A stretch of DNA of 64,000 nt, taken from contig OZ018409.1 in the NCBI GenBank assembly GCA_963969595.1, positions 47,133,282-47,197,281 on the forward strand, in the 5' to 3' direction. This stretch comes from Neckera pumila (Eukaryota > Streptophyta > Bryopsida > Hypnales > Neckeraceae). The notes below the pieces were generated by a model. That model did not search any database, had not been told where the DNA came from, and was given only the letters and a program-made list of their open reading frames with translations. Positions 24,593 to 64,000 of the stretch are shown piece after piece. The number at the start of each line of letters is the position of its first letter. Within the stretch, counting starts at the first letter, position 1. Position numbers and translations under genes: made by a program.

Positions 24593-24655
24593 CTTTTGTC
24601 AAGAAGCTGCTTTTGTCAAGAAGCTGCTTTTGTCAAGAAGCTGCTTTTGTCAAGA
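24593..24655 (+). repeat. 17-bp tandem repeat, 3.7 copies
   Basis: CTTTTGTCAAGAAGCTG is perfectly repeated at 24593, 24610 and 24627, plus a partial copy. It lies inside LTR D just before the TCGTTGTAGTA box. Perfect identity implies recent slippage. Confidence 0.95.
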
Positions 24656-31721: not shown

Positions 31722-31731
31722 CCTTTATATA
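31722..31731 (-). promoter_or_regulatory. TATA box of B LTR
   Basis: TATATAAAGG on the minus strand, about 270 bp before the ORF start. It is retained in all four B copies that include this region, with GGACTATATAAAGG context in two of them. Confidence 0.75.
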
Positions 31732-38851: not shown

Positions 38852-40428
38852 CTGTCAAAAAACACATTTAAGTGGTATCAATTTCAGCATAAGGTACTCA
38901 TCAGTTCTAAGATTTAATGTTTAACGTCCAACAAACCAAGTTCACGTCCTGTCAGTTTGGGGGAAGCGTACCACCGTATTGACCGAATATACTGCTGTCA
39001 ACGAAACTAAATGTATCGGATACATGTGTTGCTAACAAGACCACGGTAATTCAGTTCAGACAAGTCACAAGTCATCCAACTACTTCCGTAGAACAGGTGT
39101 ATGCCCGGAAGTCAACGCTCACTCACCCGTGCACAAGCTCCAAGCACCAAATAGCTTCTCGTCTGCTGCCTATGATGCGACAAAAGGTGCATTGATGCGG
39201 ACATTTTGTGGCTCTGTGTCCACAAACTTCTAACGGTTCCGCTTTAACAACAGAGTAACACCACAGATAGAAATCCAACTTCTCATCTAGAAAAATTATA
39301 GGACTGAATCTCCTGAAGTCTTTGGCCCCCTTTCAAGTGTACATCCTCGATCAGTTGAAAAGAGCTCCTTCTGCATATCCAGTCCATGTCTGAAACCTTG
39401 AGAAAAAGTTGAAAAATAACATACAAGTACCCTTCAACTGAGTTTCTTCTCTTCCTCAAATTTGCTAAACCTCCAGGCAGGAAGAGAAATTCTAGTTTCG
39501 TCAGCAACCCCAACCTTAACATCAGCAACGTCCTATGAACACAACAAGCTTCAAAACTCACTTCAGCAGAGACACAAAGTATCATGTATGACTGCCAATA
39601 TCTTCAAGTCTGTCCAATTGCTTGTCTAATTTTATACCTCCTTCTCGGCCTTTAGAACCAATAATTCCAAGGTCTGCCGCTTCCAATTTATTGACTAGAA
39701 GCTCAATTCAGTCCACACATAAATGTTCCACATATGAATCCCTGTCTTGAGATCTCCCGCTCCTCGTTCACTGAAAACGATCTCCTCCTGCTTCCGGAAC
39801 CCCCTCCAAATTGCTCAGCCCCCAGGGTTCTGAGAGAAAAAACACTCACTAGTTCCCTGCATCAACCACAACCGACGTATGGGGCCTTAATACTTAGCTT
39901 CAGTCAAACAAATTACGGCCTTCTGCTCCCTTGCGTCTGTGTCTGTTGGATTCTTCACACTGCTCAACCCTGAACTCTCAGGCCACCAAGCACGGAGGAA
40001 GGAACAACTGCGGCAGCGCTTGACATCAAAATCCACAACTTCAAATGACTTCAGCTTTTAGAAAACTGGACTGGAACGTAGTCAGGAGAAACCTCAAAGG
40101 TGAAAGTATCAATCTCTACGATTCTCTAATCCCGTACATACTCTTCTAAAGCCAGCAAGAAAGCTGCAACGGATATTGACACTTGTACAGAAAAAAACTT
40201 CTACTGAAAATTGCAACTCATGAAAAGCAAGAAACCTAAACCACAACATCTCACATGAACAACCCCAATATCTGACCTTATCCCCCCAATCGAGTAAACC
40301 TCCAAGCAGGAAGAGAATCCACAACGTCCACAACTCTCAACATATGCAAACAGCTTCAAAATTGAACTTTGCTGCAGAGAAAGGATCACACGCTGCAATG
40401 AGGAATTATGTTCTGAAAGTTCGGTTTA

Positions 40429-42405: not shown

Positions 42406-42959
42406 TGTCGTAGCACAGGGCAAGCAATTTCCCAACTATACTTCCAAAAACCACTCTAAAGCATAACAAAGTGAGTCTAAAGATTGAACCCGTGAGATTC
42501 TGTGAAGTATCTAACTTTATTAAGTATCTAAGCTTAGTCAATATCCATATTTCCCTTTCCAATCCTAACACTATAACTAGAAACACAACAACAACAAAAA
42601 CTACAATCAAACCTTTTCTCTTCCTTTCCGATTTGTCCAACTATTCAATCCGGTCTGATTAACTCATATTCACTCTTACTCTCACCCGGTTTAGTTTTAC
42701 CTCTGTTTCACCATCAGAGGGTTCACCGCTTGCTTTTGAGAGTGGCAGGCTCGCCACTCTTTCTATGACTTATAGTAGTTGAAGACCCACTTTTCTATTC
42801 TCCAATCTCCTATGCTAATCTGGATCCGATTTGGTCTCTCAAAGCAATCCAGAGCACTCTCCGGATCATCAGTCACACAAAGACCTCCTGTACAACCCTC
42901 TCATACTACAACGACCTTGACGCCAAGTTCCATCAGTACAAAGTTAGTTAGGTTACAAG
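42406..42959 (-). mobile_element. B-type LTR, distal piece of 3' LTR of minus-strand element
   Basis: The 3' end of a B LTR in minus orientation: TGTCGTAGCACAGGG at 42406 is the reverse complement of its terminus, with the stem-loop at 42720-42700 and the TCGTTGTAGTA box at 42914-42904. It is interrupted at 42959 by a plus-strand B LTR and resumes at 49914 after the ACAAG duplication. Total outer LTR length excluding the insertion is about 3.35 kb, matching other B copies. Confidence 0.85.
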
Positions 42960-43232
42960 TGTTGCAATCAGATTTTTTGGTTTTCCTTTGCTTATCTAAA
43001 AGTTGGAACGGAAACGGGTAATTAGGATCTGGATCCTGTTAGGGGGCAGAAGAAAATTGAAGATAGACAATGCTAATCCAATAAGGAGAAAACTGGATCT
43101 GATCCGGTCAAAATGTTAGTACTCAAGAGCGGAATCACATCCGGATGTTACCTCAGATCGGATTAGGGTTGAACTGGATTGATATGGACCGGACCGGAAA
43201 AGGTCATGATGACCAGCCAGGGGTCCTGGGAC

Positions 43233-43242
43233 TATATAAAGG
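43233..43242 (+). promoter_or_regulatory. TATA box of plus-strand B solo LTR
   Basis: TATATAAAGG in the context GGGACTATATAAAGG, 270 bp before the ORF start at 43512. Confidence 0.75.
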
Positions 43243-44918
43243 CTGGTCTTCCCCATTTTCACTCCTTTACTTCCCTCCAGTTCTGGAGCTGACCTTGAGC
43301 GCTTTTACGCCTCCCTTTGCGCCAGAATCGTTGTGTGTGTGTGAACCTCAGGCCGGATACGTCAGAGTGCAGGAGAGGTCGAGATTGTGTGGGTTGCAGG
43401 TTTTGTGTTGTCTTCTGGGTGAGATTGGACAAGAAGAAGTGAGGAACGGGATGTGCAGCTAGGAGAGAGTGAAGTAGCGACCGGGAAGGGTCCAGTTAGC
43501 CGTCCGTGTCCATGCTTCAGCTGCATAAGAGCAGACCGAGAGCGCCCAGTTCCTCCTCCGACATCAAGCTCCGGAAAGTGGTTCCAGTCATTCCTACCGC
43601 GGAACCGGCGAGGACCGAGCTCATGGACGATCTCAGCACGATGGGCTGTCTAGTGTTGATGGATAAACCTTGGAAGTTTTGAGAAGAACGAATGGTGAGA
43701 GAGCTGAAGTGCAAGATGTCGAATCAGTTCAACAACACTATCCGGGGCCACCTGACCAAGTGGGAAGAAGAGAGGTGGAGGGAAGTCTACAACTTCCGGA
43801 TTGGAGGTTCTGGCATGGCTGGACGGAGAGCTAAGTTCATCCATGACAAGTTTCATGGAGAGCCAAGCTGCAAGGACGGATAGGCAGTCGCAAATTGCAA
43901 GAGCAACTGGCACCTCCGTTTTCTCCAGTTCTTGGTTCCAATCATTCACTTGGAGAAGCCGACGAGGGTGATGATGACCATCGGCAATATGATTTTTGGT
44001 TCCCTGAGCGGGGAACGGAAGGTGAACGGGCCCGGATCTTTTGCGATCTGGTGTCTCAGCTTGTGACAAGGGTTGGAAAGAGTAGGGCTACTCCTTTGAG
44101 TCCCTATCTCTTCCACCTCTACCATTGCAACCAACTCCTTGCGGATACGGAGGAAAAAACATAGAACATTCAGGAATCTAGCATGAAGTATGAGGAGTTG
44201 GGTTTGAATGACGAGCCGGAAGACCCAACCGGATCCGAACCCAAGACAGAAGAGGAAGATGAAGAGGAGCACCTCCGGATGAGGAAGCGGATGAAGATGA
44301 CGCCTCCTCATAAGAGAAGAACCCCTCCTACCAACCGGTCGACTCCAGAACAGGGACCAAAAGTGGAGATGTTGGATCCCGAAGACCCAAACAACTCGTT
44401 CAATCAACTGACTGTGATTCTGTGCGGGATGTGGGAACACGCAATGTCAATATTTAGAAATCCGATCTAGTTTAGGATCAATTCCGTCAATATTTTCAAA
44501 AATTTGTAGTAGTAAAGCCGCAAACCGGAACATTTAGTAGAAACTAGGTAGTCAGGAAGTTCTGACTTACAAAAATTTGTAGAATAGGTAAGAAACGGAC
44601 TTTGGTCGGAATCCGGAAACCGGAATGGGATCCGGATTTAGGCAATCTACGAACTAGAGGTCCAGCCTATGAAAACTAGGGATCCGTTTGCAAATGGCGG
44701 CGCATTAAATGGCCGAACCAACGGGTGTTGGTCACTGGCCGGGTACTTAAGTAGATGGGCCTTTTGTTTTTCTCCCTCTTTCTTTTGCTCGAGGAGGTGT
44801 GTGTGCTTGCAAGTTTTGGAGCACGCTTCTTTTAAAAGAGTGAAAGACTGGTGAGTTAGGCCAGATAGGGAGAGAAGGAAAGGAGGGTGCCGATTGCACC
44901 GGATTGTAGGTCAAGAAG

Positions 44919-46963
44919 ATGGCAAGATCATCGGCGCAGGGGCAGAAGAGTATTCCTTCTGTCAAGCTCCTGTACCCAGTCATTCCGTCGGACTCTGCTG
45001 TGCACTTAGAGTTAGAGGAAGATCTCTTCAAACTAGGGTGCATCGGGTTCATCCGGCAACCCTGGACAGTTAGGAGTGAAGATTTTCTTTGTGAGTTGAT
45101 TATGGGGACGCCAAACCAGTTCGAGCCGATGCCAAGGGGTCGGTTGGCCTCTTGGACGAAAGGGATGTGGGCGGAAACTTACGGATTGAAGTAGTTCGGA
45201 TCCAGAAATGCGACCCAGACGGATAAGTTTTATGAAGACAAGTTCAAGAAACCGCCGCACCATGAAGAGGGTTTCACCGTTAGTGACTGTATCGATGAGC
45301 GCCATAGGCAATTACTGAATTTTCTGATTCCCATCGTCTATTCAGAAAAGCCAACCAAGGTTACTGTTACGGTGGAGAATACGATATTCGGAGCACTCGA
45401 AGGCCGGGTTGTGAACTGGGCAACCATAATCCACCAGAAGATCAAGAAGATGGCGGTGGCTATCAACAAGGCCAAGCAGCGTTCGCTCAATACTTACTTG
45501 TTCCACATGTATCATCATTTTGATTTCATAACCCCGCAGGAATAAGTTGCCTATGAGACCGGAATGCAGATCCTGAAGTACGGATTCACAGAAGAGTTGA
45601 AGCCGACAGGAAAAGCGGCACTAGAAGAAGAAGAGGAAGAGGAGGATCCGGAACCGAAGCCGCTGGAGAAGAAGAAGCGATAGAAGACCACCCATCCGGA
45701 CGCACGAAGAACGAGTTTGGACGTATTGGAATCGAATCCGTCCCTGACCCAACTAGCACCGGAATCTTCCGATGTGTCCAACTTCTATGAGGTCGGAACC
45801 CGATGGATGGTGCAGTGTCGGAAGATGCATGCCGAGATGGCAAAGGTCATCATGGGCGTCGCCAAGGAGTTAAATGTTGAGACGGATCAGATCTTCAACA
45901 AACTCCAGAAGAGACCTGATCCGGCACTACTCCAAGAGAAGGACAAGCAGATCGAGATGCTTAAGGCGGAGCGAGATCACTACAAGAACAAGTTCTACTG
46001 GACGGAGGGGCAGTCAATCTCAGCCCGGAAGAAGGAGACGGATGCCCTGAAGCTAGTCAGGGATTTGAAGGTGTTGGTAGAAGAACCGGAACATCAAATC
46101 ATCCGGTCCGCGCTTTACACAAAGAAACTCGAAAACAACGGCATTGTTACCGGATCTAGAGTGCTACAAATCTGGTCGATTACGAGGCCAAGATGAAGAT
46201 CGTTTTGGACAATATAAGGCAGCTGCTGGGACACTTGGATGTGGCCAAGGACGACTTTGGGCTACTTCCGGATATCTTCATGGAGTCCCCGGGCAAGCAT
46301 GGAGCCGGAACTTCCGGGACACAAGAAGATCCAGGCTTAAAGTCCTTGTTTAAAATGCCTAGGATGTCTCCCTCGAGTCATTTTCCGAGGTGGGGCACGG
46401 TAAATACTTTTGCCCCTTCCTCACAGTCTCCGCCGGGATCCGGAAAGGCTGGGCAGAGGTTGCCGATCCGGAGAGATCTGTTAGTAGGTTTGAGAACGAT
46501 CAATCCGGCAAGAGAGCACCTAGAGAGATTCCTTCATATGTCGGAATAGTCACGAGCACGGGGTACGCAATTGATTGACTTAGGAGATTCGGCTTCAGAG
46601 ACGAAACCGGAATCCAGGCCGGAAACCCGGCTGAATAAGAGGACGGAAATAGTGGAGGCCAAAATCTCGGATCCGGATGAAGAACTCGAGATGGTGGAAC
46701 CTGAGAGGCAGCTGAAGCTCCGGAAGTCTAAGAAGCGGAAACCAGAAAGCAAGAAGCCGATGAAGCAACAGATTGAAGACTCTGAGTCTGGAGAGTTTGA
46801 GTCGGGCTCAGAATCTGAGGAAGATACGGAGGAGGACAAGACGTCTCCTGCGACCTGTTAGAATCCGCCTCGAGCCGCCAAAATGACGCCAGCGAAGGGT
46901 TCCGGTAAGTCAACAGCCAAGCAGAGAGCCGGGAGTTCAAAGAAATCTTGGGTGGCCAAGTAG
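44919..46963 (+). pseudogene. LTR-encoded gag-like ORF, type A (second copy)
   Basis: One frame from the ATG at 44919 to ~46170, then a one-base deletion shifts it. Stops lie at ~45193, 45543, ~45681, 46546 and 46858, nearly all TAG/TAA where sisters have CAG, CAA or similar. Full domain set: globular domain (FIRQPWTVRSEDF, WAETY, NTIFGALEGRVVNWA, NTYLFHMYHHF), Glu-rich acidic run, coiled coil (DPALLQEKDKQIEMLKAER), and a C-terminal low-complexity acidic/basic tail. About 680 codons in total, longer than type B by the tail. It matches 7987-9997 throughout and allows that copy's breaks to be located. Confidence 0.8.
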
Positions 46964-47506
46964 TTAGAAGGGGACTACTTGTGGTGGTGGATTAGAATTT
47001 GGATAGTTTTATCTCGGAATCGGATTCCAAGCAAGGGCCCGCTTTCTGAAAACGTAGGGATAAGGACTTCCCGATTTATTCGGGATTTCCTTGGTGTGTT
47101 TGTGTGGTTGCCCCAGTTTGTGGAGAGCCCTTTTTCGCTTTTAGGGTGTTGACTTTGGTTTTATTTTGGGTTTTTAAAGGGCGGGCAAGTTAGTTGCCCT
47201 TCATTCCCTCCTAGTTGATATTCAGTTGTATTTCATTCCCTTTTCCAAAATTTGAGCCCTCGGGTATGTAGTTTGGCTTTATCAATGTATTCGGATTGTG
47301 TTGACCTGTGGTCTGGGTGTTGGAAGGAAAGGACGGATGAAGAGGAATCCGGATTTAGTAGAATACGGTCTGAGTCGAGAGTGTGCTATTGTAATGTTGT
47401 TGGATCGTTGACTTAGGAGCTGCGCACAGTGTCTTTAAACTACCAGAAGAGTAGTCCAGATCACAGAGTAGTGGGGAAGCGAGTCCGGTTGTCAAGCCGT
47501 GTGGAG

Positions 47507-47757
47507 GTAAGCGTCCGCCCAAGGAAGCCCCCACTTGTCCAGAAGATCTGCCAACCTGAGGATTCATCTAACTTCTAGAAAGATCACACACCCCATACTT
47601 ATTCCGGATTCTGAGATCTGTCGTTGTAGTAAGGGAAAGTGAAGTATTCCTAAGTGACCTGCTGTCCGGAGTTGCCATCCAGAAGTTGTAAGGAACCGGA
47701 TCTTTTGTCTTGCTGCAACATTTCGAATACTCGGGTGTTGTTATTTGTGTTTGTTAG
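47507..47757 (+). other. likely leader intron, second A copy
   Basis: Donor GTGGAG|GTAAGCG and acceptor TTGTGTTTGTTAG, 251 bp, collinear with 10534-10780. Confidence 0.45.
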
Positions 47758-50464
47758 AATTGTAGAAGAACAAGAGTGGTGAAGTCCCTACCCCCTCAAA
47801 AGATCAACTAGTGGATCTTCTGAAGGTAAAACAGAGGTATTGAAAACCGGATTGGAAGAAGAGACATAAACCGGATTCCAGATAGTTTACGGTCCGGATT
47901 GTGAAAGGATCCGGAAAATGTTGAGTAGGTAAGAAGAAAGAAAGAAAGAAAAGCCGGATAGCTAGAATATGCTACATATAATCCGGAAATTCCATAGGAC
48001 GATATTTCGTGTTATCTTGGCACATTTTTGTGTTAAGGATACTTACGCCTAGATTGCGCGTACGACACGGGATATGAGTAGATTGGGAGGTCAAGAGGAG
48101 AACCCTCGCTAGTGTCGAAGAGCTGGTGGGTGCATCAGGAGATAGCAAGCTACCGGGTAAGGTGGCACAGTATCTATCTAATCCGGATGAGCACCGGAAG
48201 CAGGAGGCAGAGATTTGTCAGCTTCAGGAGGAAGTCGACACTCTGAAGGCTGAGATGATAGCCTTCAGAGAGGACAAAGCCGCAGTTCAAGAAATGGCAA
48301 AAGCATTCCGGAAGGTGGCCAAGTTTGTAAAGGCCACCCTCGGAGAGTCTGGATCTGTCGCGGTCAAGGCGAAATTATTTGATGAAGGGGTGCATGAGGA
48401 AAAAAAGGTATCCGGTTCCTGGATAGTTTGGATCCTGACCAATTTCACCGATTGAATGAAGGTGTCAATGGTGGCGGCCAGGGAGGCAGCCAATCGGATG
48501 GACATTAGCAACCAGAAGCTGAACGGGTCCATGTACTCTCGGGAGATCCAACTTTTGGACCTCTCGCTATCGGATTTGTTTGCAGCCGAAGGATTGAATC
48601 TGAGGGAGCCCAAGGATCAGATGCTCGAGTCAAGAAAGAGTCACTGAAGGCCTGGGCCTGGGCAACCAATTCATTTGGATTCATCGCTAGGATCAGATCT
48701 TCCAGATCCTACTGCCGGGGAGCGGAGTAGGAACTTGACTGAAGTTTTCAACCAACTTCTCGTGGAACCCAAGAGTCCTATGCTGGGTGGGGGAGTTGGA
48801 TAGTAGGTACGTAGGTAGGAATATAATTTTTTTAAGATAGTTAGGAACGGATTGGATGTTGATGCGGTTTGGCCAGTTAGGATTGGACTCGGATGTCCAG
48901 CGCAAATTTTTGGGGGCCTTTTTGCCTTTGTGATCAAGTTGTATATAAGTCAACCCTTGCTTGAGAGCTGCAAGTCTTTTTGCCCAAAATTTGTGTATGT
49001 TTTCTCTTGGCTTCTTGTTGCGTGTCTCTACCGTGTGTGGCAGGGTTGTATGGTGAGGAGTTAGGAAGGCACATACTGGTTTGGGTGTGATTTCTCCCTT
49101 TGGTGTTTTTGTTTTTGATCTTATGTGCAAGTGAGCAGGTTGTGAAAGATTTGGGAGTAGATTTCAGTTCCTCAGCATTTCTAGGGTTTAGGATTCCGGA
49201 CGAGACAGCCGTTATTAGGCTAGGCGGATAGGGAGGGATTCCTTAGTCGCGCTAGAATTCTTGAGTGGGAAATCCGGTTGAGTGTCCGATCTCCTTAGAG
49301 ATCTCGCTGCCCTAGTTGGCAAACGGAAGAACTTTAGTTAATGTTAGAATGAACGGGTTCACTTGCAATCGCCTGACTTCGTACAGACGGAACTTGGTGC
49401 TAAGGTCGTTGTAGTATGAAAGGATTGTACGGGGGGTCTTTGTGTGACTGGAAATCCGGAGAGTTCTCTGGATTGCTGTGAAGGATCAAACCGGATCTGG
49501 ATTAGTGTAGGAAATTGGAGAATAGAGAAGTGGGTCTTTAACCAATATAAGTCACGGAAGGAGTGGTGGGCCTGCCGCTCTCAAAAGCAAGCGGCGAACC
49601 CTTTGATGGTGAAACAAAGGTAAAATTAAATTGGATGGGAGTAAGTGTGGATGTGAGATGATCAGACCGGTTCGGAAAGTTGGCTGGATCGGGAAAGGAG
49701 AAGAAGGTCTGATTGTAATTTTTGGTGTTGTTGTGTTTCCGGTTATGGTGTTAGGACTGGAAGAGGAAATATAGGTATTGACTGAGCTTAGAGATCAAAT
49801 AAGGCTACATACTTCACAAAATCTCGCGGGTTTGATTTTTAGAGTCACTTTGTTATACTTTAAAGTGGTTTTTGGTAGTATAACTAGGAATTTGCTTGCC
49901 CTGTGCTGCGACAACAAGTGTATCTGTTCGTTCCAATGTTAACTAAAGCTCTTCCGTTTATCAACTAGAGTAGCGAGATTTCTTAGGAGATCGGACACAA
50001 CCAGATTTTCCATCTAGGAGTTCTAGTGTGACTAAGGAATCCCTTCTTATCCACCTAGCCTAACAACGATTTTCTTGCCCGGAAATCTAAACCTTAGAAA
50101 TGCTGAGGAACTAAAATCTACTCCCAACTCTTTCTTTTGTCCACTCACTTGCACATAAGATAAAAACAAGAACACCAAGGGGAGAAATCACTCCTAAAAA
50201 CCACTTGCGCCTTCCTAACTCCTCACCATAGAGTCCTGCCACACACGGGAGAGACACACAACAAGAAGCCAATAGAAAGCACAAGCAAAGTTGGGCGAAA
50301 AGACTCCCATCTCTCAAACAAGGATTGGCTTTATATACAACTGATTTACAAAGGCAAAATGGGCCCTAGAAATCCGCGCGGAACTTCCAGGTCCAATCCT
50401 AACCGGCTTGACCGGATCAACATCCGATCCGCTCCAAACTATTTTACATAGAATTAATTCCTAC

Positions 50465-52144
50465 CTACTTTGCAACTCCCTCACCTAGTGTAGGACTTCT
50501 AGATTCCACGGGTAACTGGTTGAAGACATCCTCCAAATTCTTGCTCCGCTCTCCGATTGCAGGATTTGGAAGATCCGATTCTAGCGATGAATCCAAATGA
50601 ATTGTTTGTCTAGGTGCAAGTTTAGTCTTTCGTTGACTCTTCTTTGATTTGGGAGTCCAATCCTTAGGCTCCCTCGGATTTGATCCTTCTGCCGCAAACG
50701 ATTTCGACAGCAAGAGATCCAAAAGATGGATTTCTCTAGAGTACATGGATCCATTCAGCTTCTGGCTATTAACGTTCATCCGATCAGCTGCCACTCGTGT
50801 TCATGCCACCATCATTGCCATTTCCACCCAATCGGTAAAATAGGTCAGGACCCAAACTATCCGGGAACCAGATACTTTCTTCTCCTCGTGTACTCCCTTG
50901 TCAAACAACTCTGTCTCGATTGCGGCGGATTCGGAAGCTTCGAGAGTGGCCTTCACTGTCTCCGCCACCTTCCGGGTTGCATCCGGCATTCGCCATCTCC
51001 CGGACGGCGGTCTTATCTTCTTTGAAGGCGACCATCTCTGCCCTCAACGTGTCGACTTCCTCCTGAAGCTAATGAATCTCTACCTCTTGCTTCTTATACT
51101 TGTTTGGATTGGTAATGTGTAGTGCTATCTTAGCCGGTAGCGTACTGTCTATCGGCGCACCCACTAGATCTTTGATACTAGAGAGGGTCCTTCTCTTGAC
51201 CTCTCAATCCGCTTGTATTCTGCAAAGGATGCCGGTTACTTGATTGAACGGATCAGTCAAGTCTTTGAGATCTAGTATCTCCACTTCCGATCCCTGTTCT
51301 GGAGTAGACCGGTTGATAGGAGGGGTTCATCTCTTATGACGAGGAGGTGTCTTCATCCGCTTCCTCGTCCTGAGGTGCTCCTCCTCATCTTCTTCTTCCG
51401 TCTTTGGTTTGGATCCGGATAATTCCTCCGGTTTGTCATCCGAACCCGACTCCCCATATTTCAGGATGGATTCCTAAATATTTCACATCTTCTCCTCCAT
51501 GTCGGTGAGGAGTTGGTTGCGCTGGTAGAGGTGAAAGAGGTAGGGACTCAAAGGAGTGGCCCTACTCTTTCCAACTCTAGTAACAAGCTAGAATACCAGA
51601 TTGTAAAAGATCCCAGCCTAATTTACATTCCGTTCTCCGCTCAAGGCCCCGAAAATAGTGTTGCCGATAGTCACTGTCATCCTTGTTGGCTTCTCCGAGT
51701 GGATGATTGAAATCAAGAACTGGAAAAGGCGGAGGTGTCAGCCGTCTATGCAATCCGCGACCGCGTATTTGTCCTTGTTGCTTGGCTCTCTATGAAACTT
51801 ATCATGGATGAACTCACTCAACTCAGCCCTTCGTCCTGCCATGCCTACACCCCCCAATCGGAAGTTGTAGACCTTTCTCCACCTCTCTTTTTCCCACTTG
51901 GTTGGATGTCCTCGAACAATATTGTCGAATTGATTTGACAGTTTGCCCTTAAGCTCTCTCACCATCCGCTCTTTTTTAAACTCCTAGGGTTTGTCCATCA
52001 ATCCCAAACAGCCCATCGCGTTGAGGTCGACCATGAGTTCGGTTTTTGCCGGTTTCTCAGAGGGGATGACCGAAACTACTTTCCAGAGCTTAATCTTTGA
52101 GGAGGAACTGGGCGCTCTCGATCTACTCTCACAAAGCTGAGGCG
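50465..52144 (-). pseudogene. LTR-encoded gag-like ORF, type B, start codon lost
   Basis: Same order as other B ORFs: FGLGG-type N-terminal domain with RWRKVYNF, a Glu-rich acidic run, a coiled coil and a tail ending SPTLGEGV. At the expected start the triplet is ACG (52144-52142) where sisters have ATG, and several point stops and small indels follow, for example after DKP near 51985 and around 51475. It is the most decayed of the B copies, consistent with being the host into which the others inserted. Confidence 0.7.
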
Positions 52145-52426
52145 TGGATACGGACTTGGCTAGCTAAATCCTTCTTGGTTGCTACCTCATTCTCTCCTAG
52201 CCACACGTCTTGTTCCTGACTTTCTCTCGCCCAATCTCAACCAAAAGACAACACATAACTTGCAACCCATACAATCTCAACCTTTTATGCACTCTAACGC
52301 ATTCTAACGCACTCGTACTTTAATCTTCATGCATACAACGGCTCTGGCACAGACAGAGGTATTAAAGCGCTCAAGGTCAGTTCCAAAATTTGAGGAAAGT
52401 AAAGGAGCGAAACTGAGGAAGACCAG

Positions 52427-52436
52427 CCTTTATATA
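52427..52436 (-). promoter_or_regulatory. TATA box of outer B LTR
   Basis: TATATAAAGG on the minus strand at the same position as in the other B LTRs. Confidence 0.7.
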
Positions 52437-52709
52437 GTTCTAGGACCCCTGGCTGGTCATCATGACCTTTTCCGGTCCGATCCATAGCAATCTAGTTCAA
52501 CCCTAATCTGATCCGAGATAAATTCCGGTTGTGATTCCGCTCCTGAGTACTAATATTCTGACCCAATTAGATCCAGTTTATCCCTTACTGCATTAGCTTT
52601 GTCTATCTTCAATCTTCTTCTGCCTCCTAGCAGGATCCAAATCCTAATTACTCATTTCCGTTCCAACTTTTAGGTAAGCACGGGAAAACCAAAAATTCTG
52701 GTTGCGACA

Positions 52710-52726
52710 TTACCCCTTCCTCATTT
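52710..52726 (-). promoter_or_regulatory. polypurine tract of minus-strand element
   Basis: The minus strand reads AATGAGGAAGGGGTAA immediately before the LTR tip TGTCGCAACC. It matches the position and form of the tract at 7492-7504. Confidence 0.75.
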
Positions 52727-52739
52727 GTGAGCGTCTCGC

Positions 52740-54096
52740 GAACATTATTTGAAGTTGTCTGAAGAAGTAGCAGCGGTATACTTCTTTACCCTTGATCCCT
52801 TTATACAAGTGTCAAACCACTGACCTCGTAGATTTTGTCATTGCAGGGATCCGTTCTAGAAAACTTGGTTGACTCGGAAAGGTCCCATCCATCGAGTATG
52901 CAATTTACTTGGAAAATCCTTGTGACGGTTGTCATAGAGGAGAACTAGTCCTCCTTCTCGGGTTCCGCGATCTGCTAGAAGTTTCAGGTCGTAGTCTTCC
53001 TTGCGCCTATTTTGCACTCCTAGGGTTCTCTCCAAGGCTGCATTTTGGATCTCCTCTAGTTCTTCAATGGCGAGGAGTCGGGGAAGTGTATCCTTTTTTG
53101 ACTCCGCACTTTGAGCTGCCATGACTCAAAAGTTTCTACGTCCAACTCCACTCTATGGATTGCCTCCTAACCAAAGATCAAAAAGTACGGTGTCTTTCCG
53201 GTTGTGGTTTTCTTTGTGGTGTTGTACGCATGGACTGCTGAAGGTAGTTTCTGGTCCCAATCCGTCTTGTGAGCGGAAACAATCTTGTTCAAGATCTTAC
53301 CAATGATTTTGTTTGCCCGCTCCATTAATCCATTCGCTTTAGGATTGTAAAGAGTCGTCTTCCGATGCTTGATAAGATACTTGTTGGTTAGGTCAACAAT
53401 GACATCATTGAGGAAATGGGTTCCTCAATTGCTGACTAGCTCCAGTGGGTGACCAAACTACATGAGGATTTCCTCAAACAAAAAATTTGCTGAAGTCTTT
53501 GCATTGTTCTTCCTTGTTGCTTTGGCCTCCACCCATTTGGTCGCATAATTTGTGGCTAGGATAATATACCTCTTCTTCCGTCCACTAACTAGAAAAATGG
53601 GTCCAATAAAGTCTATCCTCCATTTCTCAAATGATGCTAGAGGAATCATAGGAGTCAGTGGCCAGTGGTTTCGGAAGGATGGTGCTCCTGTCCGCTGACA
53701 CTAATCACAACTTCGAACAAAATTCCTCACATCTCGGTGTAAATACGGCCACCGGTATCCGGTTGATTGGATCCGGTTTATTGTACCTACAAAGGCAAAA
53801 TGCCCTCCTGAACTTCCAAAATGAAGAGCTTGGATTACTTTCTTCCATTCCGGAGGTTCTAGACATCGCCTGAGAACGTCATCCGTTCCTAACTTAAAAA
53901 GAACTCCTCTAATCAAAGTATAAGGAGCCACTTTCCTTTGGAAAATTTCTTTTTCTTCGTGACTCATCTGTTCCGGATATGTAAACTTCACTAAGTAATC
54001 TATGATGTCTTGATAATCAGAAATAGACTCAGTGTTGAGGTAAAAGACCTTGACCAAAAGAGAATCTAAATTTTCTATCCCTATCGAATCTGCCAC
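52740..54096 (-). pseudogene. integrase, decayed
   Basis: The minus-strand segments align with the plus-strand integrase: KVAPYTLIRGVLFK, GHFAFVGTINRI, YRWPYL, SCD at 53701-54096; RIDFIGP and IILATNYATKWVEAKATR at 53458-53649; the C-terminal block LHTRWMGPF at 52856-53122; and an RVKKY-like end near 52780. Stops and frame changes separate the pieces. The first catalytic Asp is retained; the distal core is broken. Confidence 0.75.
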
Positions 54097-55805
54097 CGGA
54101 TTCGAGAATTCATCCGGAAACTTGGCAGAGATATCTGCAACAGATTTCTGTCCTCTCTGCCTTGAGAGGTAATCCGCATTAACATTTGCCTTTCTGGGCT
54201 TGACTATAACTTCATAGTCAAACTCTTATAAGAGCAAAATCCATCTAGCAATCCAGCCTGACAAATTCGGTTTGTTCACAAGGTATTTCAAAGAATCATG
54301 ATCCATGTGAAAAATTACCTTGTACCCCAGTAAATAATGTCGGAACTTCTTACAGGAATACACCACTGCTAGCGCCTCTTGTTCTATGGTTATGTAATTC
54401 TATTCTACTCGCATAGTAAATTGGGTTCTCCCACTTCTCTGCGTCGCATTGCCATATAATGGACCCCAAACACCAATCGGATGCATTGATAGTAACATGG
54501 AACTCCTTGGTCCAATCTGAAACTGACAAGATCGGAGCTTTAGCCAACTGGATCTTCAGATCTTCAAAGGCTTGCTGTCTCCTTTTGGTCCAAACAAATT
54601 CCGTATCTTTCTTAAGAAGTTTTGTGAGTGGAATAGCCCTCTTGGCATATCCATTGATGAACCGTCTGTAGTAGCCCGCACATCCAAGAAATCTACGGAC
54701 TTCATTTACGTTGGTTAGAGGTAACAAGAAGAGCATTACTTTCACCTTCTCCAAGTCCGCCTGTAATCCGGTTCGGCTTTCCACATAACTGAGTAGAATT
54801 CCCTATCTCATTCCAAAAAAACATCTTCCCGGATGTAGTTTCAAACTGATCTCTCGGCATTTTTGGAATGTCTTCCTCAAACACTCAAGATGACTTTCCC
54901 AGTTGTTAAAACCGCAAAGTCTTCTATGAATACCTCAATGAAATGCCAAAGGAAATCTTTGAAGATGTCCACCATGAGTTGCTGAAATATTCCGGGTGTA
55001 TTACACAGACCAAACGGAATCCGGTTGAAGGCGTAAGTTCCCCATTCCGTCGTGAATGTTGTCTTTAGCTGATCGCACCACCGAATGAATACTTAGTTAT
55101 AACCAAAAAATCCATCTAAGAAGCTGTAGCACTCATGTCCAGCAACGTGGTCCAAAATAATGTCAGTGAACGGAAGAGGGAAATAGTCCTTTTTTGGGGC
55201 TACGTTCAATTTTCAAAAATCTTGGCAAACTCAGATTTTGACTTTCCCATCTGCTCTAATCTTCTTTGGAACAACCACAATGGGAGAAACCCATTCAGAG
55301 TTGTGGACCAGATAGATGAATCCCGCCTCCAACAATCAATCGATTTCGTCCTTGACCATCAACGAATACTTGGGATTCAGCCGATATTGTTGCTGTCGGA
55401 CCGGAATGGATCCTTCCATCAAGTTGATGCAATGCTCTCCTAGATGAGAGGAAATTTTCTTCTGGTTGAATGGCTCCCAAGCATAAACGTCAAGGTACTC
55501 CTTTAGAAGTTGAATAGAACTGGATCTCTCTGTATCCTTCAAGAGTTTATTAACATAGAAACTCTTGTTGGGTCCAATACTCTCCTTTTCAAAATCAGTG
55601 GGTGAGACAACCGGTTTGACTTTTTTTGAGTACCCTTCCTCCGGAAAGGAAGCTAAATTTTCCCAACCAGATTCTCTTATCTCACCTTCACTCGTCGAAA
55701 GATTTTTGCTCCTAATCTGCTAAGCAATCCACTCAGCTGTGAGCGGAACACTCAACTCCCCTAAGGATTGATCTTCCAACACTGTCTCTTGGATTTCTCC
55801 CGGTT
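54097..55805 (-). pseudogene. reverse transcriptase and RNase H, decayed with altered active sites
   Basis: Aligned by blocks such as KEYLDVYAWEPF, YRLNPKYSLMVKDEID, FLGCAGYYRRFINGYAKRAIPL and DWTKEFHVTINAS. The RT box reads FIEDF in place of FIDDF, and the first RNase H Asp is changed to Asn (INAS in place of LDAS), so both activities should be lost even without the many stops. It is cut at 55805 by the CATGC-flanked B insertion. Confidence 0.75.
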
Positions 55806-56085
55806 CATGCTGTCGCAACCAAAATTTCTAGTTTTCCTTTGCTTATCTAAATATTGGAACGAAAACGGGTAATTAAGATCCGTATCCGATTAGAGGAGTA
55901 GAAGGAAATTGGAGATAAACAACGCTAATCCAATAAGGAGAAAACTGTATCTGATCCGGTCAGAATGTTAGTATTCAGGAGCGGAATCACATCCGGATCT
56001 CACCTCAGATCGGATTAGGGTTGGACCGGATTGATAAAGGACCAGACCGGAAAAGGTCATGATGACCTGCCAGGGGTCCTGGGAC

Positions 56086-56095
56086 TATATAAAGG
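56086..56095 (+). promoter_or_regulatory. TATA box of B LTR
   Basis: TATATAAAGG, 271 bp before the ORF ATG, in the same context as the other B copies. Confidence 0.75.
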
Positions 56096-56365
56096 TTGGT
56101 CGTCCTCATTTTCACTCCTTTACTTCCCTCGAACTCTGGAGCTGATCTTGAGCACTTTTACGCCTCCGTCTGCACCAGAGCCGTTGTATGTGTGTGCGCT
56201 TCCGGTCGGGCATGTCCGAGAGTGTAGGAAAGGTAGAAAGCATGTGGGTTGCAAGTTTTGTGGTGTTTTCCGGTTGAGATTGGACGAGAGGAAGTGAGGA
56301 ACGAGACGTGCGGCTAGGAGAGAGTGAGGTAGCGATCGGTAAGGGTCCAGTGGCCACTAGTGTCC

Positions 56366-58018
56366 ATGCCTCAGCTGCGTAAGACCAGACCGGGCGCTCC
56401 CAGTTCCTCCTCCGACGTCAAGCTCCGGAAGATAGTTCCGGTCATTCCTATGGAAGAACCGGCCCGGACTGAGCTGATGGAGGATCTCAACGCCATGGGG
56501 TGCCTCGTCCTGATGGATAAACCGTGGGTGTTTCATGAGGAGCGGATGGTGAGGGAGATCAAGTGCAAGGTGTCGAACGAGTTCGACAACACTCTCCGGG
56601 GCCGCCCGACCGAATGGGAAGAAGAACGATGGAGGGAAGTTTACAACTTCCGGATGGGAGGTTCCGGTATGGCCGGGCGGAAGGACGAGTTCATCCATGA
56701 CAAGTTTCATGGGGAGCCAAGTAACAAGGACAGGTACGCGGTCGCAGACTGTAAGAATGACTGGCATCGTAACCTCCTTTAGTTCCTGGTTCCGATCATC
56801 CACCTGGAGAAGCCAACGAGGGTGACGATGACCATTGGCAACACCATTTTTGGTTCCCTGAGCGGGGAACGGAAGGTGAACTGGGCTCGGATCTTTTCCA
56901 ATCTGGTGTCCCAGTTGGTGACGAGGATTGGAAAGAGTAGGGCCACTCCTTTGAGTCCCTACCTTTTCCACCTCTACCAGAGGAACCAACTTCTCACTCT
57001 GATTGAGGAGAAGACGTGGGGTATTCAGGAGTCGATCCTGAAGTATGGAGAGTCGGGTTCGGATGACGAGGTAGAGGAACAAACCGGATCCGAACCCGAG
57101 ACGGAAGAAGAAGAAGAGGAAGAGCCGTCTCGACAGAGGAAGCGTCAGGACACAACGCCTCCTCATAAGAGAAGACCCCCCTTGAATCCCGGGTCCACAC
57201 CAAAACAGGGACCGGATGTTGAGATGTTGGATCTCGAGGATCCGACCGATCCATTCAACCAGTTATTGGTTGTCCTGGCCGGAATACGGGCGGACTGGGA
57301 AGTCAAGCGGAGGACTTTGACCACTATCTCGGAACTAGTGGGTGCACTAGTCGATAGCGATTTGCCGGATAAGGTGGGGCAATTCCTAGCCAATCCGGAA
57401 GAGAACCGGAAACAGGAGACGGAGATCTGTCAACTTCAGGAGGAAGTTGATACTCTGAGGGCGGACATGGTCACCCTCAGGGAAGACAAGGCAGCAGTCC
57501 GAGAGATGGCGGAGGCAACCCGGAAGGTGGCTGAGTCGGTGAAGGGCACTCTTGGAGAGTTCGGATCCACCGCAGTCAAGGCGGCCTTATTTGACCAAGG
57601 GATGCACGAGGAGAAGAAGGTATCCGGTTCCCGGATAGTTCGGATCCTCAGCGACTTCACCGATCGGGTGGAAGCATCCTTAGTGGCAGCACGAGAGGTG
57701 GCCGACCGGATGGACATCAGCAGTCAGAAGCTGAACGGGTCCTTATTCTCCCAGGAAATCCACTTCTCGGACATTTCGATGCCGGATTTGTTTCCAGCAG
57801 GAGGATTGAATCCGGGTGAGCGCAAGGATCATACACCCGAGTCACGGAAGAGTCACAGGAGACCTGGAACGGGGCAGCCAATTCAGATAGATTCGTCGCC
57901 CGGGTCAGATCTTCCGAATCCAGCTGTCGGTGAACGGAGTCGGAACTTGGCGGATGTCTTCAATCAATTGCCCGAGGAACCTAGGAGTCCTACGCTGGGC
58001 GGGGGAATTGGAGAGTAG
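56366..58018 (+). pseudogene. LTR-encoded gag-like ORF, type B, best preserved copy (one stop)
   Basis: The ATG at 56366 (MPQLRKTRPGAPSSS) gives 550 codons in one frame, broken only by a TAG at 56780-56782 where the sister at 29798-31450 has CAG. The matching length in two copies (1653 nt) supports this as the real gene. Order: basic start; globular domain ~25-210 (LMEDLNAMGC, W.EERWREVYNF, DKFHGEPSNKD, NTIFGSLSGERKVNWARIF, SPYLFHLYQRNQLL); acidic run ~230-250; basic PPHKRRPP linker; coiled coil ~345-400 (QLQEEVDTLRADMVTLRED); tail ending SPTLGGGIGE. No zinc knuckle or enzyme motif is visible. The N-terminal domain recalls poorly characterised plant transposon-associated proteins, but I cannot name it. 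It may be the capsid part of a split Gag. Confidence 0.8.
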
Positions 58019-58817
58019 GATAGGAAGTTAGTAGGAATGTAAAATATTTGTAAGATAGTTAGGACCGGATCGGATGACTATCCGGTCTGGCTTGTTAGGA
58101 TCGGATCCGGATTTTCAGCGCGGATTTTGAGGTCCCTTTTTGCTTTGTAATCAAGTTGTATATAAGTCAACCCCCGCTTGGGAGCTGGGAGAGTTTTTCA
58201 CCTCATTTTTGCGTACGTCTTCTCTTGGCGTCTTGTTGTGTGTCTCTCCCGTATGCGGCAGGGTCGTGTGGCGAGGAGTTAGGAAGGCGCGTGCTAGTGT
58301 GGGTGTGATTTCTCCCTTTGGCGTGTTTGTTTTGGTCTTATGTGCAGGTGAGCGGGTTGCAAAAGCGTTGGGAGTGGATTCCAGTTCCTCAGGAGCCCTA
58401 GAGTTTAGAATTCCGGGCTAGACAGCTGTTGTTAGGCTAGGCGAATAGGGAGAGATTCCTTAGTCGTGCTAGAACTCCTGGGTGTGAAATCTGGTTGAGT
58501 GTCCGATCTCCTGAGAGATCTCGCCGCCTCATTGGGCAAACGGAAGAACTTTAGTAGAGGTTGGAACGGATGGGTTCACTTGCAGCCGCCTGGCTTCGCA
58601 CAGACAGAACGGGGTACTAAGGTCGTTGTAGTATGGAAGGGCCGTACGGGGGGGTCTTTGTGTGACCAGTGATCCGGAGAGTTTTCTGGGTTGCTGTGAA
58701 GGATCAAACCGGGTCCGGGTTAGTGTAGAGAATTGAAGAAAGAAGAAGTGGGTCTTCAGCCACTATAATTCACGGAAGGAGCGGCGGGCCTGCCACTCTC
58801 AAAAACAAGGGGCGATC

Positions 58818-58838
58818 CCTCTGATGGTGAAACAGAGG
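58818..58838 (+). promoter_or_regulatory. conserved stem-loop in LTR (copy in B)
   Basis: CCTCTG / ATGGTGAAA / CAGAGG. Other B copies have CCTTTG / CAAAGG at the same place (49600-49620; minus strand at 29001-28981), which is a paired change on both sides of the stem. Confidence 0.65.
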
Positions 58839-59130
58839 TAAAACTAAACCGGGTAGTAGTACGAGCGGATGAGAGTTGATTAGACCCAATCGGAATGTGG
58901 ACCGGATCGGAGAAGTAAGAAAGGGTCTGATTGTAGTTCTGGGTGTTGTTGTGTTTCCGGTTGTGTGTTTAAACCGGAAGAAGAAATATAGGTACTGACT
59001 TAGCTTAGAGACCAAATAAGGCTATCTACTTCACAGAATCTCGCGGGTTCGATCTTTAGAGTCACTTTGTTATACTTTAAAGTGGTTTTTGGTAGTATAA
59101 CTGGGAAATTGCTTGCCCTGTGCTACGACA

Positions 59131-60161
59131 AACTCCTCACGCATACGGAGGAGAAGACATGGAGCCTTCAGGAGTTGATCCTGAAGTACGGGGAGTTGGG
59201 TTCGGATGACGAACAGGAAGAGCAAAGCGGGTTCGAACCCGAAACAGAAGAAGAAGAAGAGGAGGAGCCATCCCAGCCGAGGAAGCGGATGAAGACAACG
59301 CCTCCTTGCAAGAGAGGAACCCCTCCAACCACCCGATCCACTCCAGACCAAGGACCGGATGTGGAGATGCCGGATCCCAAAAACCCGACCGATCCGTTCA
59401 ACCAGTTGACGATAATCCTGTATGGGATACGAGCAGACTGAGAGGTCAAGAGGAGAGCTCTCACCAGTATTGGAGATATGATGGGTGCACCGGTGGATAG
59501 TGATTTGCCAGGTAAGGTGGGCCAGTATCTAGCCGATCCGGATGAGAACCGGAAGCAGGAGGCAGAGATCCGTCGGCTTCAGGAGGAAGTCAATACCCTA
59601 AGGGTTGACATAGTAGCCCTCAGAGAAGACAAAGCTGCAGTCCAGGAGATGGTGGAGGCAACCCGGAAGGTGGATGAGTCGGTGAAGGACACTCTCGGAG
59701 AGTCCGGATCCACTGCAGTCAAGGCGGCACTATTTGACAAAGGGGTGCATGAGGAGAAGAAGGTATTCGGTTCCCGAATAGTTCGGATCCTAACCGACTT
59801 CACCAATCGGGTGAAAACGTCCTTAGTGGCAACGAGGGAGGCGGCCAACCGGATGGACATCAGCAACAGGAAGCTGAACAGGTCCATGTACTCCCGGGAG
59901 ATACAACTTTTGGACCTCTCGCTACCGGATTTGTTTGCAGCGGGAGGGTCAAATCCGAGGGAGCCCAAGGATCAGACACCCGAGTCGAGAAAGAGTAACC
60001 GGAGACCTGGGTCTGGGCAACCGATTCATCTGGATTCATCGCCAGGGTCAGATCTTCCGGATCCAGCTGCCGGGGAGCGGAGCCGGAACCTTGCCGACGT
60101 CTTCATTCAACTGCCCAAGGAACCCAAGAGTCCTACGCTGGGTGGGGGAGTTAGAGAGTAA
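59131..60161 (+). pseudogene. type B gag-like ORF, C-terminal half in truncated LTR
   Basis: Starts at the deletion joint with the LLTHTEEKTW block, then the acidic run, coiled coil and tail (SPTLGGGVRE). One TGA at ~59440 replaces the Trp of RADWE. Otherwise it is open to 60161 in a single frame. The codons just before the joint are LTR-end sequence read in the same frame, an accident of the deletion. Confidence 0.75.
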
Positions 60162-61283
60162 GTAGGTAGGTAGGTAGGTAGTTAGGAATGTACAGTTTTG
60201 TAAGATAGTTAGGACCGGATTGGATGTGATCCGGTCTGGCCGGTTAGGATTGGACCCGGATGCCCAGCACGGATTTCCGGGGGACTTTTTGCTTCGTAAT
60301 CAAGTTATATATAAGTCAGCCTCTGCATGGGAGCTGGGTGTCTTTTCACTTAAATTTTGTGTACATCTTCTCTTGGCCTCTCGTTGCGTGTCTCTCCCGT
60401 GTGTGGCAGGGTTGTGTGGTGAGGAGTTAGGAAGGCGCACGTTGGTGCGGGTGTGATTTCTCCCTTTGGCGTTTTTGTTTTGATCTTATGTGCAAATGAG
60501 CGGGTTGCAAAAGCGTTGGGAGTGGATTTCAGTTCCTCAGCATTTCTAGGGTTTAGGATTTTGGGCGAGACAGCCATTGTTAGGCTAGGCAGATAGGGAG
60601 GGATTCCTTAGTCGTGCTAGAACTCCTGGGTGGGAAATCCAATTGAGTGTTCGATCTCCTGAGAGATCTCACTGTCTTCATGGACAAACGGAAGGACTTT
60701 AGTTGATGTCGGAACGGACAGGTTTACTTGCAACCGCCTGGCTTTGTACAGACGGAACGTGGCGCTAAGGTCATTGTAGTATGGAAGGATCATACGAAGG
60801 GTCCTTGTGTGACCGGTGATCCGGAGAGTTCTCTGGATTGCTGTAAAGGATCAAACCGGATCTGGATTAGTGTAGGGAATGGGAAAATAGAGAAGTGGGT
60901 CTTCAGCCACTATAAGTCACGGAAGGAGCGGTGGGCCTGCCACTTTCAAAATCAAGGGGCAAACCCTCTGATGGTGAAACGGAGGTAAAACTAAACCAGA
61001 TGGGAGTAAGAGCGGATGTGAGCTGATCAGACCGGATCGGAAAGTTGATCGGACTGGAGAAGGAGAAGAAGGTCTGATTGTAGTTCTCGGTGTTGTTGTG
61101 TTTTCGGTTGTGGTATTAGAACCGAAAGAGGAAATATTGGTATTGACTTAGCTTGGAGACCAAATAAGGCTATCTACTTCACAGAATCTCGCGGGTTTGA
61201 TCTTTAGAGTCACTTTGTTATACTTTAAAGCGGTTTTTGGTAGTATAACTGGGAATTTGCTTACCCTGTGCTGCAACACATGC

Positions 61284-62044
61284 TCTAACACAGCATTGGA
61301 GAATCCATGATTTGCCTCGGATTGGTGTTCGAATGGATCTACATAATAGCTCGCGGCGGAGTCTTCCAAATCTGACCAGTTTGTCGTGTAGCCATCCGAG
61401 TCGCTGGTCTCTCCCAAATGTTTCTCCATGGCCCAAGGAATCCGGGTGGAAGGTTTCCCTACCACCAGCTCCTTGGCTCCCCAATCCACAAGAACCTGGG
61501 CGGAACATAACCAAGGTCTTCCAAGTAACATCGGAAAGGGTCTACCTTTATGAACACGGATGATGACGTAGTTCAACAGATAGTCCTTTTCTCCAATCCG
61601 GGTTGGCACTTGTGAAAGTCTACCAACCGGATGTACCCGAGACTGGTCCGCCATCCGGAGAACTTGTTCCGTGGCTTGGAATGTTATGAATCCCAAGTCA
61701 AATGCTGTGTCTTCCAGCATCAGGTTAACTCCCAATCCGTCATCGATGGAAACCTTGGGAATTGTACATTCTTCTATCTCCACAGTGACCTCTGAAGCTT
61801 CGGCATCTTCCGGTTGAGAAAAGTTAATTGCCACCGCGGGTAGCTTCACCATCTTCTTCCGTTATTGTGTCCAGGCGTCTCGGATTAGCTTCTGGTACAT
61901 CACATCGTCATGCACAAGTTGTCCAATAGTCACATTTGCCTTCTGATCTTTAATATCTTGGATGATGTTATACTCATGGATACTTACATGCGGATTGATG
62001 ATCACTAGGATGTCACTAAAAGCAATTGCCTTCTGGTTCTGCAC
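61284..62044 (-). pseudogene. protease region of minus-strand pol
   Basis: The minus strand reads INPHVSIHEYNIIQDIKDQ then DAWT (62044-61862, a TAA between) and MVKLPAVAINF onward (61852). The active-site region reads SIDDGLGVN against VDGGSGVN in the plus-strand copy, so the catalytic motif is altered. LLGRPWL follows. The frame is cut at the CATGC site and continues at 55805 as EPGEIQETVLEDQSLGEL, in line with the plus-strand protein. Confidence 0.75.
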
Positions 62045-62313
62045 AACATCCAGTCCAGAGATTTTTGTTCAGATCTCTGCACTGATATCTATCGGAATCC
62101 GGTTATGGTCTACTCTCTCCTCCAAATGATCTACCTCCGATTGCAGTCTCTACTCTTGATAGAGCAGATCCGAATTGCTACTCAATTCTGGTTTCTTCTT
62201 TGACTTCCTTTTGCTTCTCTCAGCGGACCATCCGGATTGGTTCCTGGTGAACTGCGGGTGGATACTCGGTTGACCATGCTCTTCGCTCCCACTAGCAGCT
62301 CCACCTCACACCG

Positions 62314-62620
62314 TCACTTTTCTGGATTCTCCGTTCCGACTGAGGGACCGTAGTTTAGTGCAGTCTGCTCCCTTGGAAGAATTTGCACTTGTTTGTAAAC
62401 CGGCCGCGGTTGCATTAATTTTAAACAGTCTTGCTCGGTATGTCCATATTCTCCGCAATTTAGGCATGGCAAAATCTGTGGTGCACCTTGCCTTTGTCCC
62501 TTGTTAGGACAACTACTGGAAGAGTGTCCTGGTTCTCCGCAACAATAACAAATCACCACTTGTCTGTCCGGATATCCAAGTACTCGCATAGGTGGCTGCA
62601 CCATTGGGCCATGACTAGAT
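62314..62620 (-). pseudogene. nucleocapsid-like segment with two CCHC knuckles
   Basis: CYCCGEPGHSSSSC and CLNCGEYGHTEQDC fit CX2CX4HX4C. The open frame begins inside the last ~60 bp of the adjoining LTR and has no ATG at its start. It lies immediately after the 5' LTR, with no other Gag region between. This shows that in these elements the zinc-knuckle part is internal while the rest of the Gag-like protein is in the LTR. Confidence 0.8.
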
Positions 62621-64000
62621 TGTTGTACACGCAATGTAGGGGTAAGTATCTTTAGCCACAATGTTGTGCTAAAATGACACAAGTTATCGTTCCAGGGAAT
62701 TTCAAGATGATGCTACACATTTCAAGTTTTCCGGATTCTCTTTTCTCCTCAATCCAATCACCTATTCATTCAATTTCGGATCTTTCTACTATCCAGAATT
62801 CAACCCAAATCCGGTTCTACCCGGAATCCAGTTTCCACTTCCAAAGCAAGATGGTTTCTTTCACCTCTATTTCACCCTCAGAGGGTCCGCTTTGATCTTT
62901 CGAGGGGTAGGGACTTCACCACTCTGGTTCTCACACTCACTAAACTTGACAAATACAAACAAACACCCAAATATTTAAAGGAGTTGCTACAAGGAAAGAA
63001 GATCCGGATCCTCACAACTTCCTAGACACCCGATCCGGAAAGCAGGTCACTCAGGACTCAATCCACTCCTTACTACAACGATAGATTACAAGGTTCCGGA
63101 ACCTACCGGGGGTTGTTTGTTAAGTGCTAGACCATTCCGAGGTTGGCAAACCTTCCGGGAGAGTGGCGACTTCCTCTAGGCGGGCGCTTACCTCCGCACA
63201 GGTTGACAGCTGGACTTGCTTCCGCTATTCAATCAACCGAATCACCGTTATAGTAGTTTAAAGGCACTATATACTTCCACTCAGTCAAGAATCTAACACT
63301 GTCTCAAATGTACCTTTCAAATGGAACCGACTACCCAAGATCCGGATTCCTCTTCACCCGTCTGCCCTCACACTCTAGTATAGTTACAAGCATTCAGACC
63401 AACATTTGAACACAAAGATGAAAATCCGAACGCTCACTCAACACTTAGATTAATAGAAAGGAATGGAATACAAATGAAAATTTGCTAGGAGGGAATGACC
63501 GCACAACAAGCTTGCCAACCCTTAAAAATCCACAAAAAGTCAACACCTAAAAGCCGAAAAGCACCCCGGTAATCCGGACAGCCAATCAAAGAACCATCAG
63601 AGACACCCGGAAAATCTATTGCCGGCTCATTCTAAAAATAAATCTGGAACCAGGGTCCCAAGCGCGGAAATCCCGTTCCGGAACTAGAGTTCAAAACCTA
63701 TTTAAAAAACAAAACATCCTAACTAACTACTTTTTCCGTGGCTTCTTCGTACTGCTGCGGCCTTGTGTCACTCCTGTTGTCTTTGTGGAGGTGTTCCGGA
63801 CACTTGCCTGGGTCTGGATCGCGCGTTGGATCAGCAAAGTTGCTGTGTCTTCAGTCTCCTCTTCATTGGATAGGATGAACTCCCTATCCGACTCCATCTC
63901 TATGGGTTGCCCCAATGAAGCTCCAACCGGATCCTCTTCATCGCCTTCCTCCTCTTCTTCGGATGCTTCCTCCATGTGGGAGAAATCTTCTGGATGAGTC
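62621..64000 (-). mobile_element. C-type 5' LTR of minus-strand element (runs off window)
   Basis: The minus strand ends CCTACATTGCGTGTACAACA at 62621, the A/C-type terminus. A stem-loop (62884-62864), acceptor and donor of the leader intron (62940 and 63191), a TCGTTGTAGTA box (63081-63071) and a gag-like tail are collinear with the C LTR at 18214-20997. The LTR start lies beyond the window. Confidence 0.8.
63727..64000 (-). pseudogene. type C gag-like ORF, C-terminal tail (partial)
   Basis: The frame enters from the window edge and ends at 63727 with RSSTKKPRKK. It is a Glu/Asp-rich block (EEASEEEEEGDEEDP) followed by SLGQPIEMESDREF and a Thr/Ser/basic end. It is uninterrupted here and aligns with 19650-19876 of the plus-strand C copy. 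Function is unknown. The rest lies outside the window, so intactness cannot be judged. Confidence 0.65.

Follow-up and report, generated by a model that had tools for sequence, protein, structure and literature searches.

A selected protein gene inside the long terminal repeats of Neckera pumila Ty3/gypsy retrotransposons and its possible anti-silencing role

Introduction

Does a retrotransposon of Neckera pumila carry a protein gene inside its long terminal repeats (LTRs), and what might such a gene do there? The question is raised by a unit at 55811-59130 (plus strand) of a 64,000-nucleotide stretch of this genome, hereafter the window (assembly GCA_963969595.1, contig OZ018409.1, positions 47,133,282 to 47,197,281 of the forward strand). 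The unit, a type A LTR, starts with TGTCGC and closes with CGACA; it has TG...CA ends, and full-length copies elsewhere have identical end bases. Within it, an open reading frame (ORF) of 550 codons plus stop occupies 56366-58018 (plus strand). The original prediction, made from the letters alone, described giant LTRs that each carry a promoter and a gag-like gene kept by selection. We show here that the gene indeed lies within the LTRs of gag-pol elements and bears the marks of selection, and that it does not resemble gag. We further propose that its protein may act against silencing.

Results

The gene lies within LTRs

The genome, 339,505,838 bases in 18 contigs, was searched with the type A LTR, and the best 40 of 809 candidates were scored, yielding 47 rows from which 37 copies were read. 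For type D, 39 long rows were obtained, including the window's own, and 10 of the 38 others were read together with the two LTRs of a full-length element. As top-scoring matches to a single query, the copies read do not amount to a census.

Two full-length elements reveal the anatomy. The type A element, C2:40270913-40283455, has GCACT on both sides and LTRs identical at 3262 of 3321 positions; the type D element, C6:121732-138413, is bordered by ACTTT and its LTRs agree at 3515 of 3546 positions (both duplications were read by eye). The ORF is present in both LTRs of each element, with a common stop at codon 507 of 550 in the C2 element and common stops at codons 365 and 490 in the C6 element, whose 5′ LTR has one extra stop. 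In the C2 element a primer site ten bases past the 5′ LTR is followed by an internal ORF encoding gag with zinc knuckles, and the C6 element has the same order of primer site and gag. The primer sites match tRNA-Asp at 17 of 18 bases in type D and at 15 of 18 in the type A element. PF03732 is matched by the internal ORFs (E 1.5e-9 in the type D and 1.1e-8 in the type A element), and a purine tract lies ahead of both 3′ LTRs. Gag was read from the two full elements, and the order reverse transcriptase, RNase H, integrase from the type D element of the window. With near-identical LTRs, 5-bp duplications, primer site, purine tract and gag-pol order, these are Ty3/gypsy LTR retrotransposons, and it is practically beyond doubt that the gene is part of their LTRs.

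The same junctions appear twice, independently, within the window, where a purine tract and then an LTR start come after pol. At the first, the internal region of a type D element (2887-7504, plus strand; zinc knuckles at ~3120-3255 by eye, reverse transcriptase, RNase H, integrase) leads into a type D 3′ LTR (7505-11091, plus strand). At the second, the LTR starts at 52709 on the minus strand: an older type A LTR, labelled C (42406-52709, split by 42960-49913), is the 3′ LTR of a minus-strand element whose internal region (52710-62620, split by 55811-61278) encodes zinc knuckles, protease and reverse transcriptase-integrase. The LTRs of types D, E and F in the window have the same layout as the type A LTR. 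No self-repeat was detected inside any of five LTR units tested, and hence no shorter LTRs flank the ORF. Together with the two full elements, this rules out short true LTRs around an internal ORF, the outcome named in advance as fatal to the original prediction. Free-standing elements are ruled out as well, for in gag-pol elements the units adjoin the purine tract and the primer site.

Solo LTRs form the majority of the copies read. An exact 5-bp duplication encloses 24 of the 37 type A copies, two of which represent one duplicated locus with identical flanks, and four more have one mismatch; when the flanks were re-dealt, 2000 trials averaged 0.9 exact duplications and never exceeded 5. The remaining copies are three 5′ LTRs that have a primer site, one of them a variant (by eye), three 3′ LTRs with a purine tract (by eye) and three others. 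Among the 10 type D solo copies, eight duplications were exact by script, one was exact by eye after a trimmed end was restored, and one had a single mismatch. Solo LTRs in the window comprise one of type A at 28688-32005 (minus strand, flanks GATAC/AATAC), another of type A at 42960-49913 (plus strand, ACAAG), which is split by a type D copy at 44430-48067 (plus strand, CGGGA), and one of type F at 21260-25201 (plus strand, CCCGA). All four target duplications listed in the original prediction are present (CGGGA, ACAAG, CCCGA and CATGC), the ends for ACAAG and CCCGA having been moved 1-2 bases by eye from the scripted ones. However, CATGC encloses 55811-61278 and not 55811-59130 alone, which has CATGC on its left and AACTC on its right.

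Placement in U3 and candidate promoters

Both in the window and in the two full elements, a purine tract precedes the LTR gene. Because this polypurine tract lies upstream of the accessory gene, the gene falls inside the LTR and so occurs in both LTRs and in solo LTRs; plus-strand synthesis starting upstream of it would make it part of the U3 (unique 3′) region. The expected TATA box upstream of the gene was found at 56086-56093 (plus strand), 280 bp 5′ of the ATG; all 37 type A copies have its TATATAA core. The core recurs in 35 of the 37 in a second box, at 58159-58166 (plus strand) about 970 bp before the LTR end; TATA-like counterparts occur at -873 to -924 in the LTRs D1, E and F, and the pattern was not found in D2. 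Box 1 is a candidate promoter that would transcribe the LTR gene, and box 2 one that would start the genomic RNA. We consider it likely that the gene belongs to U3, the transcriptional side of this assignment being read from the two boxes.

The reading frame and its protein

The type A ORF retains its ATG in 37/37 copies, is free of frame-shifting indels over 1650 bp in 34/37 and is open throughout in 5/37; the copy at 56366-58018 has an in-frame stop at codon 139. The type D frame, of 681 codons, has an ATG in 14/14 rows and is open throughout in none of them, with frame-shifting indels in 5 of the 14 relative to the reference row. A 301-codon open frame also runs antisense to the LTR ORF (56357-57262, minus strand).

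The protein would consist of a globular N-terminal domain, an acidic linker and a coiled coil, to which type D would add a basic tail. The predicted coiled-coil stretch covers codons 345-394 (57398-57547, plus strand) and has sub-threshold coiled-coil Pfam matches only, from other ORF copies. No Pfam match of the LTR ORF reached the cutoff, whether to gag, Ty3 capsid, zinc knuckles or any other family. The gag-like label had to be dropped: a normal gag (PF03732) sits in the internal region, and on this, together with the absent gag match, we reject a gag-like LTR ORF. The wider idea of a structural or gag-like accessory protein draws on a size, acidic linker and coiled coil that would suit an assembly protein, and genes 3′ of pol are common in plant LTR retrotransposons, according to PMC7264820; against it stand the complete internal gag with its zinc knuckles and an LTR ORF that matches neither, and we hold it to be quite unlikely. 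Searches of the PDB returned no sequence relative at E <= 1, nor at E <= 10, and Foldseek gave no match to viral models at E <= 0.001. VANC21 of the VANDAL transposons is the one structure that the LTR protein domain matches, and the match is weak.

Selection on the LTR gene

Across 10 window pairs, the ratio of nonsynonymous to synonymous substitution (NG86 dN/dS) was 0.174-0.355, well below the value near 1 that was to count against selection. Control frames gave 0.865-1.052 (+1) and 1.329-1.601 (+2); the range was 0.473-0.883 when noncoding DNA was treated as codons. Among the 37 type A copies the mean pairwise difference at codon positions 1-3 was 0.0485, 0.0424 and 0.0953, compared with 0.0768 in the 5′ noncoding part and 0.0577 in the 3′ one; type D gave 0.0646, 0.0443 and 0.1166, with 0.054 and 0.0609 in noncoding DNA. 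The low dN/dS and a protein plan common to four LTR types bear out the claim of selection on an LTR-encoded protein.

In type A, the nonsynonymous-to-synonymous ratio (N/S) of substitutions seen in a single copy was 1.01 of the neutral expectation, and that of substitutions in two or more copies 0.57. Selection has thus worked on the lineage from which new copies arise, and copies drift once inserted. It follows that selection operates during amplification of the element and not on solo LTRs afterwards, and the picture of a solo LTR as a maintained cassette is not supported. Shared changes creating stops numbered 16 against 14.6 expected; either broken copies multiplied or the same mutations recurred. 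Such stops weigh against a strict need for the protein in cis and are compatible with a protein acting in trans. The neutral decay after insertion and the stops common to several copies are also what a captured passenger ORF without function would display. This explanation is already contradicted, and its chances are close to nil: dN/dS falls far under that of the shifted frames, indels in the ORF are few, and the same protein recurs in four LTR types although the noncoding DNA of types A and D can no longer be aligned.

An array of CCGGA sites

The structural match to VANC21 prompted a count of hexamers in the elements. Hexamers containing CCGG rank among the most enriched in every element piece but the oldest LTR, where their rank is lower. 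In each of seven element stretches CCGGA/TCCGG is 3.5-7.7 fold enriched over dinucleotide shuffles and above the maximum of 200 shuffles; six other stretches of the window never exceed their shuffle maximum, and one ties it (7). The density of CCGGA is 4.2-21.2 per kb in element pieces compared with 0.2-1.2 in eight 5-kb genome stretches. The 5′ noncoding LTR has 12.6 motifs per kb in LTR A1 and 29.0 in D1. Sites occur in noncoding and coding DNA, in about equal orientations (41/35 in D1, 21/18 in A1). The site is wider than five bases, with A at -2 and A or T at -1 and +1 (approximately A-W-CCGGA-W), and the base at -1 is T in types D and E and A in type F. Each type A LTR has 36-50 sites, though most individual sites come and go.

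Two explanations other than escape from silencing bear on this array. The LTR protein could be a transcription activator of its own promoters with the CCGGA sites as operators, as the two TATA boxes and the dense motif of the 5′ noncoding LTR would allow; the motif is equally dense in pol and the ORF, where promoter activation has no need of it, and we find this rather unlikely. The motif and the protein could also be unrelated, CCGGA serving RNA packaging or reflecting a base-composition habit of the lineage, and the protein serving nuclear import or as a decoy for a host protein. The weakness of the VANC21 match speaks for such a separation. The near-equal orientations argue for double-stranded DNA over RNA, and the three pol frames at 3404-6250 carry the motif about evenly (7, 8, 7 and 6, 5, 8), though the shorter ORF at 6273-7463 does so unevenly (1, 3, 7); we judge it unlikely that motif and protein are unrelated.

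Other features of the window

Downstream of the unit under study, another type A LTR is represented by its last two thirds at 59131-61278 (plus strand). One target duplication thus holds a full LTR and two thirds of an LTR that differs from it by 18%, and the pair is best explained if a nested LTR recombined with its host LTR. An inverted type D LTR start lies at 1626-2890 (minus strand), its N-terminal 260 codons open. A type E LTR, its start approximate, spans 18400-20997 (plus strand), and a type E LTR end lies at 62621-64000 (minus strand); the latter was rejected as 5′ LTR of the minus-strand element, since a by-eye comparison with the C2 internal region places it inside that element's gag. 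Noncoding LTR sequences of types D and E are 77% alike at one place (18445-18820 vs 7600-7980) and 68% at another (20018-20997 vs 10139-11091), and their ORFs are alignable at the protein level only; the gene either diverged faster than its flanks or was exchanged. On contig C11 (12.3 Mb of 339.5 Mb, 3.6% of the genome) lie 18 of the 39 long type D matches listed, which are best matches, an excess that a sex chromosome or a heterochromatic one would account for.

The sequence TCGTTGTAGTA at 58623-58634 (plus strand) is identical to the start (5′ end) of plant tRNA-Asp. Of 10 LTR units that extend to the LTR end, nine, covering all four types, have this motif some 445-510 bp ahead of that end; the exception is 59131-61278, and 40 kb of background lack the motif's 10-base core. 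This is the same tRNA whose 3′ end fits the primer site. A small hairpin, CCTCTG...CAGAGG, lies at 58818-58838 (plus strand), about 300 bp before the LTR end; 27 of 37 type A copies have it unchanged, types D and E have similar sequences, and F has a weaker one. An Rfam search gave two weak matches, both below cutoffs, and ARAGORN found no tRNAs in the window.

Lastly, the window holds a DNA transposon-like gene in two ORFs (11358-14218), the first matching PF04937/DUF659 (E 1.2e-36), which we take to be of hAT type, and an uninterrupted PPR-DYW gene (36515-38854, minus strand) with 779 open codons and near-repeats of ~303 bp, a type of gene that points to a land plant.

Discussion

Based on these data, we propose that the U3 region of these elements contains a gene transcribed from box 1, with genomic RNA starting at box 2, and that its product would be a sequence-specific DNA-binding protein recognising CCGGA-centred sites across the LTR and the internal region. 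By analogy with VANC proteins, it would work in trans and keep related copies unsilenced. We give this explanation as a whole a probability of roughly 0.45. Its parts differ in strength: binding of the putative protein to the CCGGA motif is somewhat favoured, and the anti-silencing role has a little less than an even chance. More tentative is the full analogy, in which each insertion, solo LTRs included, would add a promoter-bearing VANC-like gene together with binding sites, and protein and CCGGA array would co-evolve by LTR type and act in trans across the family. The LTR types have diverged both in their protein and in the base before CCGGA.

If the protein acts against silencing, the very act of reverse transcription supplies both LTRs with the gene, and solo LTRs, generally regarded as inert remains, would at first be working genes. 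Retrotransposon LTRs would then bear an anti-silencing system. This reading predicts that methylation and transcription of copies should track CCGGA density and LTR type.

A protein gene in the LTR has a precedent in mouse mammary tumour virus, whose superantigen gene likewise lies in U3; that system is an animal retrovirus, and we claim no kinship between the proteins. The elements may belong to the Tat/Athila-type Ty3/gypsy lineage, which shares with them a tRNA-Asp primer site, an internal gag-pol and long LTRs. Grande, RIRE2, Retand and Athila resemble them in having an extra gene 3′ of pol, but in those Ty3/gypsy elements the additional ORF sits in the internal region ahead of the 3′ LTR (PMC7264820), whereas here the purine tract precedes the gene and the gene is hence inside the LTR. 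Searches of the open-access literature turned up no LTR-borne protein gene under selection in a plant retrotransposon, though such a library cannot exclude one. A close likeness is to the VANDAL family of Mutator-like transposons, whose anti-silencing protein VANC21 is associated with the motif YAGTATTAY, mainly noncoding and in one orientation (PMC5735166, PMC10398659). Both systems combine an element-encoded protein with a dense, family-specific short motif and type-specific variants of it. They differ in that VANDAL is a DNA transposon and the present elements are LTR retrotransposons, and in that the motif of the LTR elements stands in both orientations and in coding DNA too; nor did the PDB sequence searches bring out any similarity between the LTR protein and VANC.
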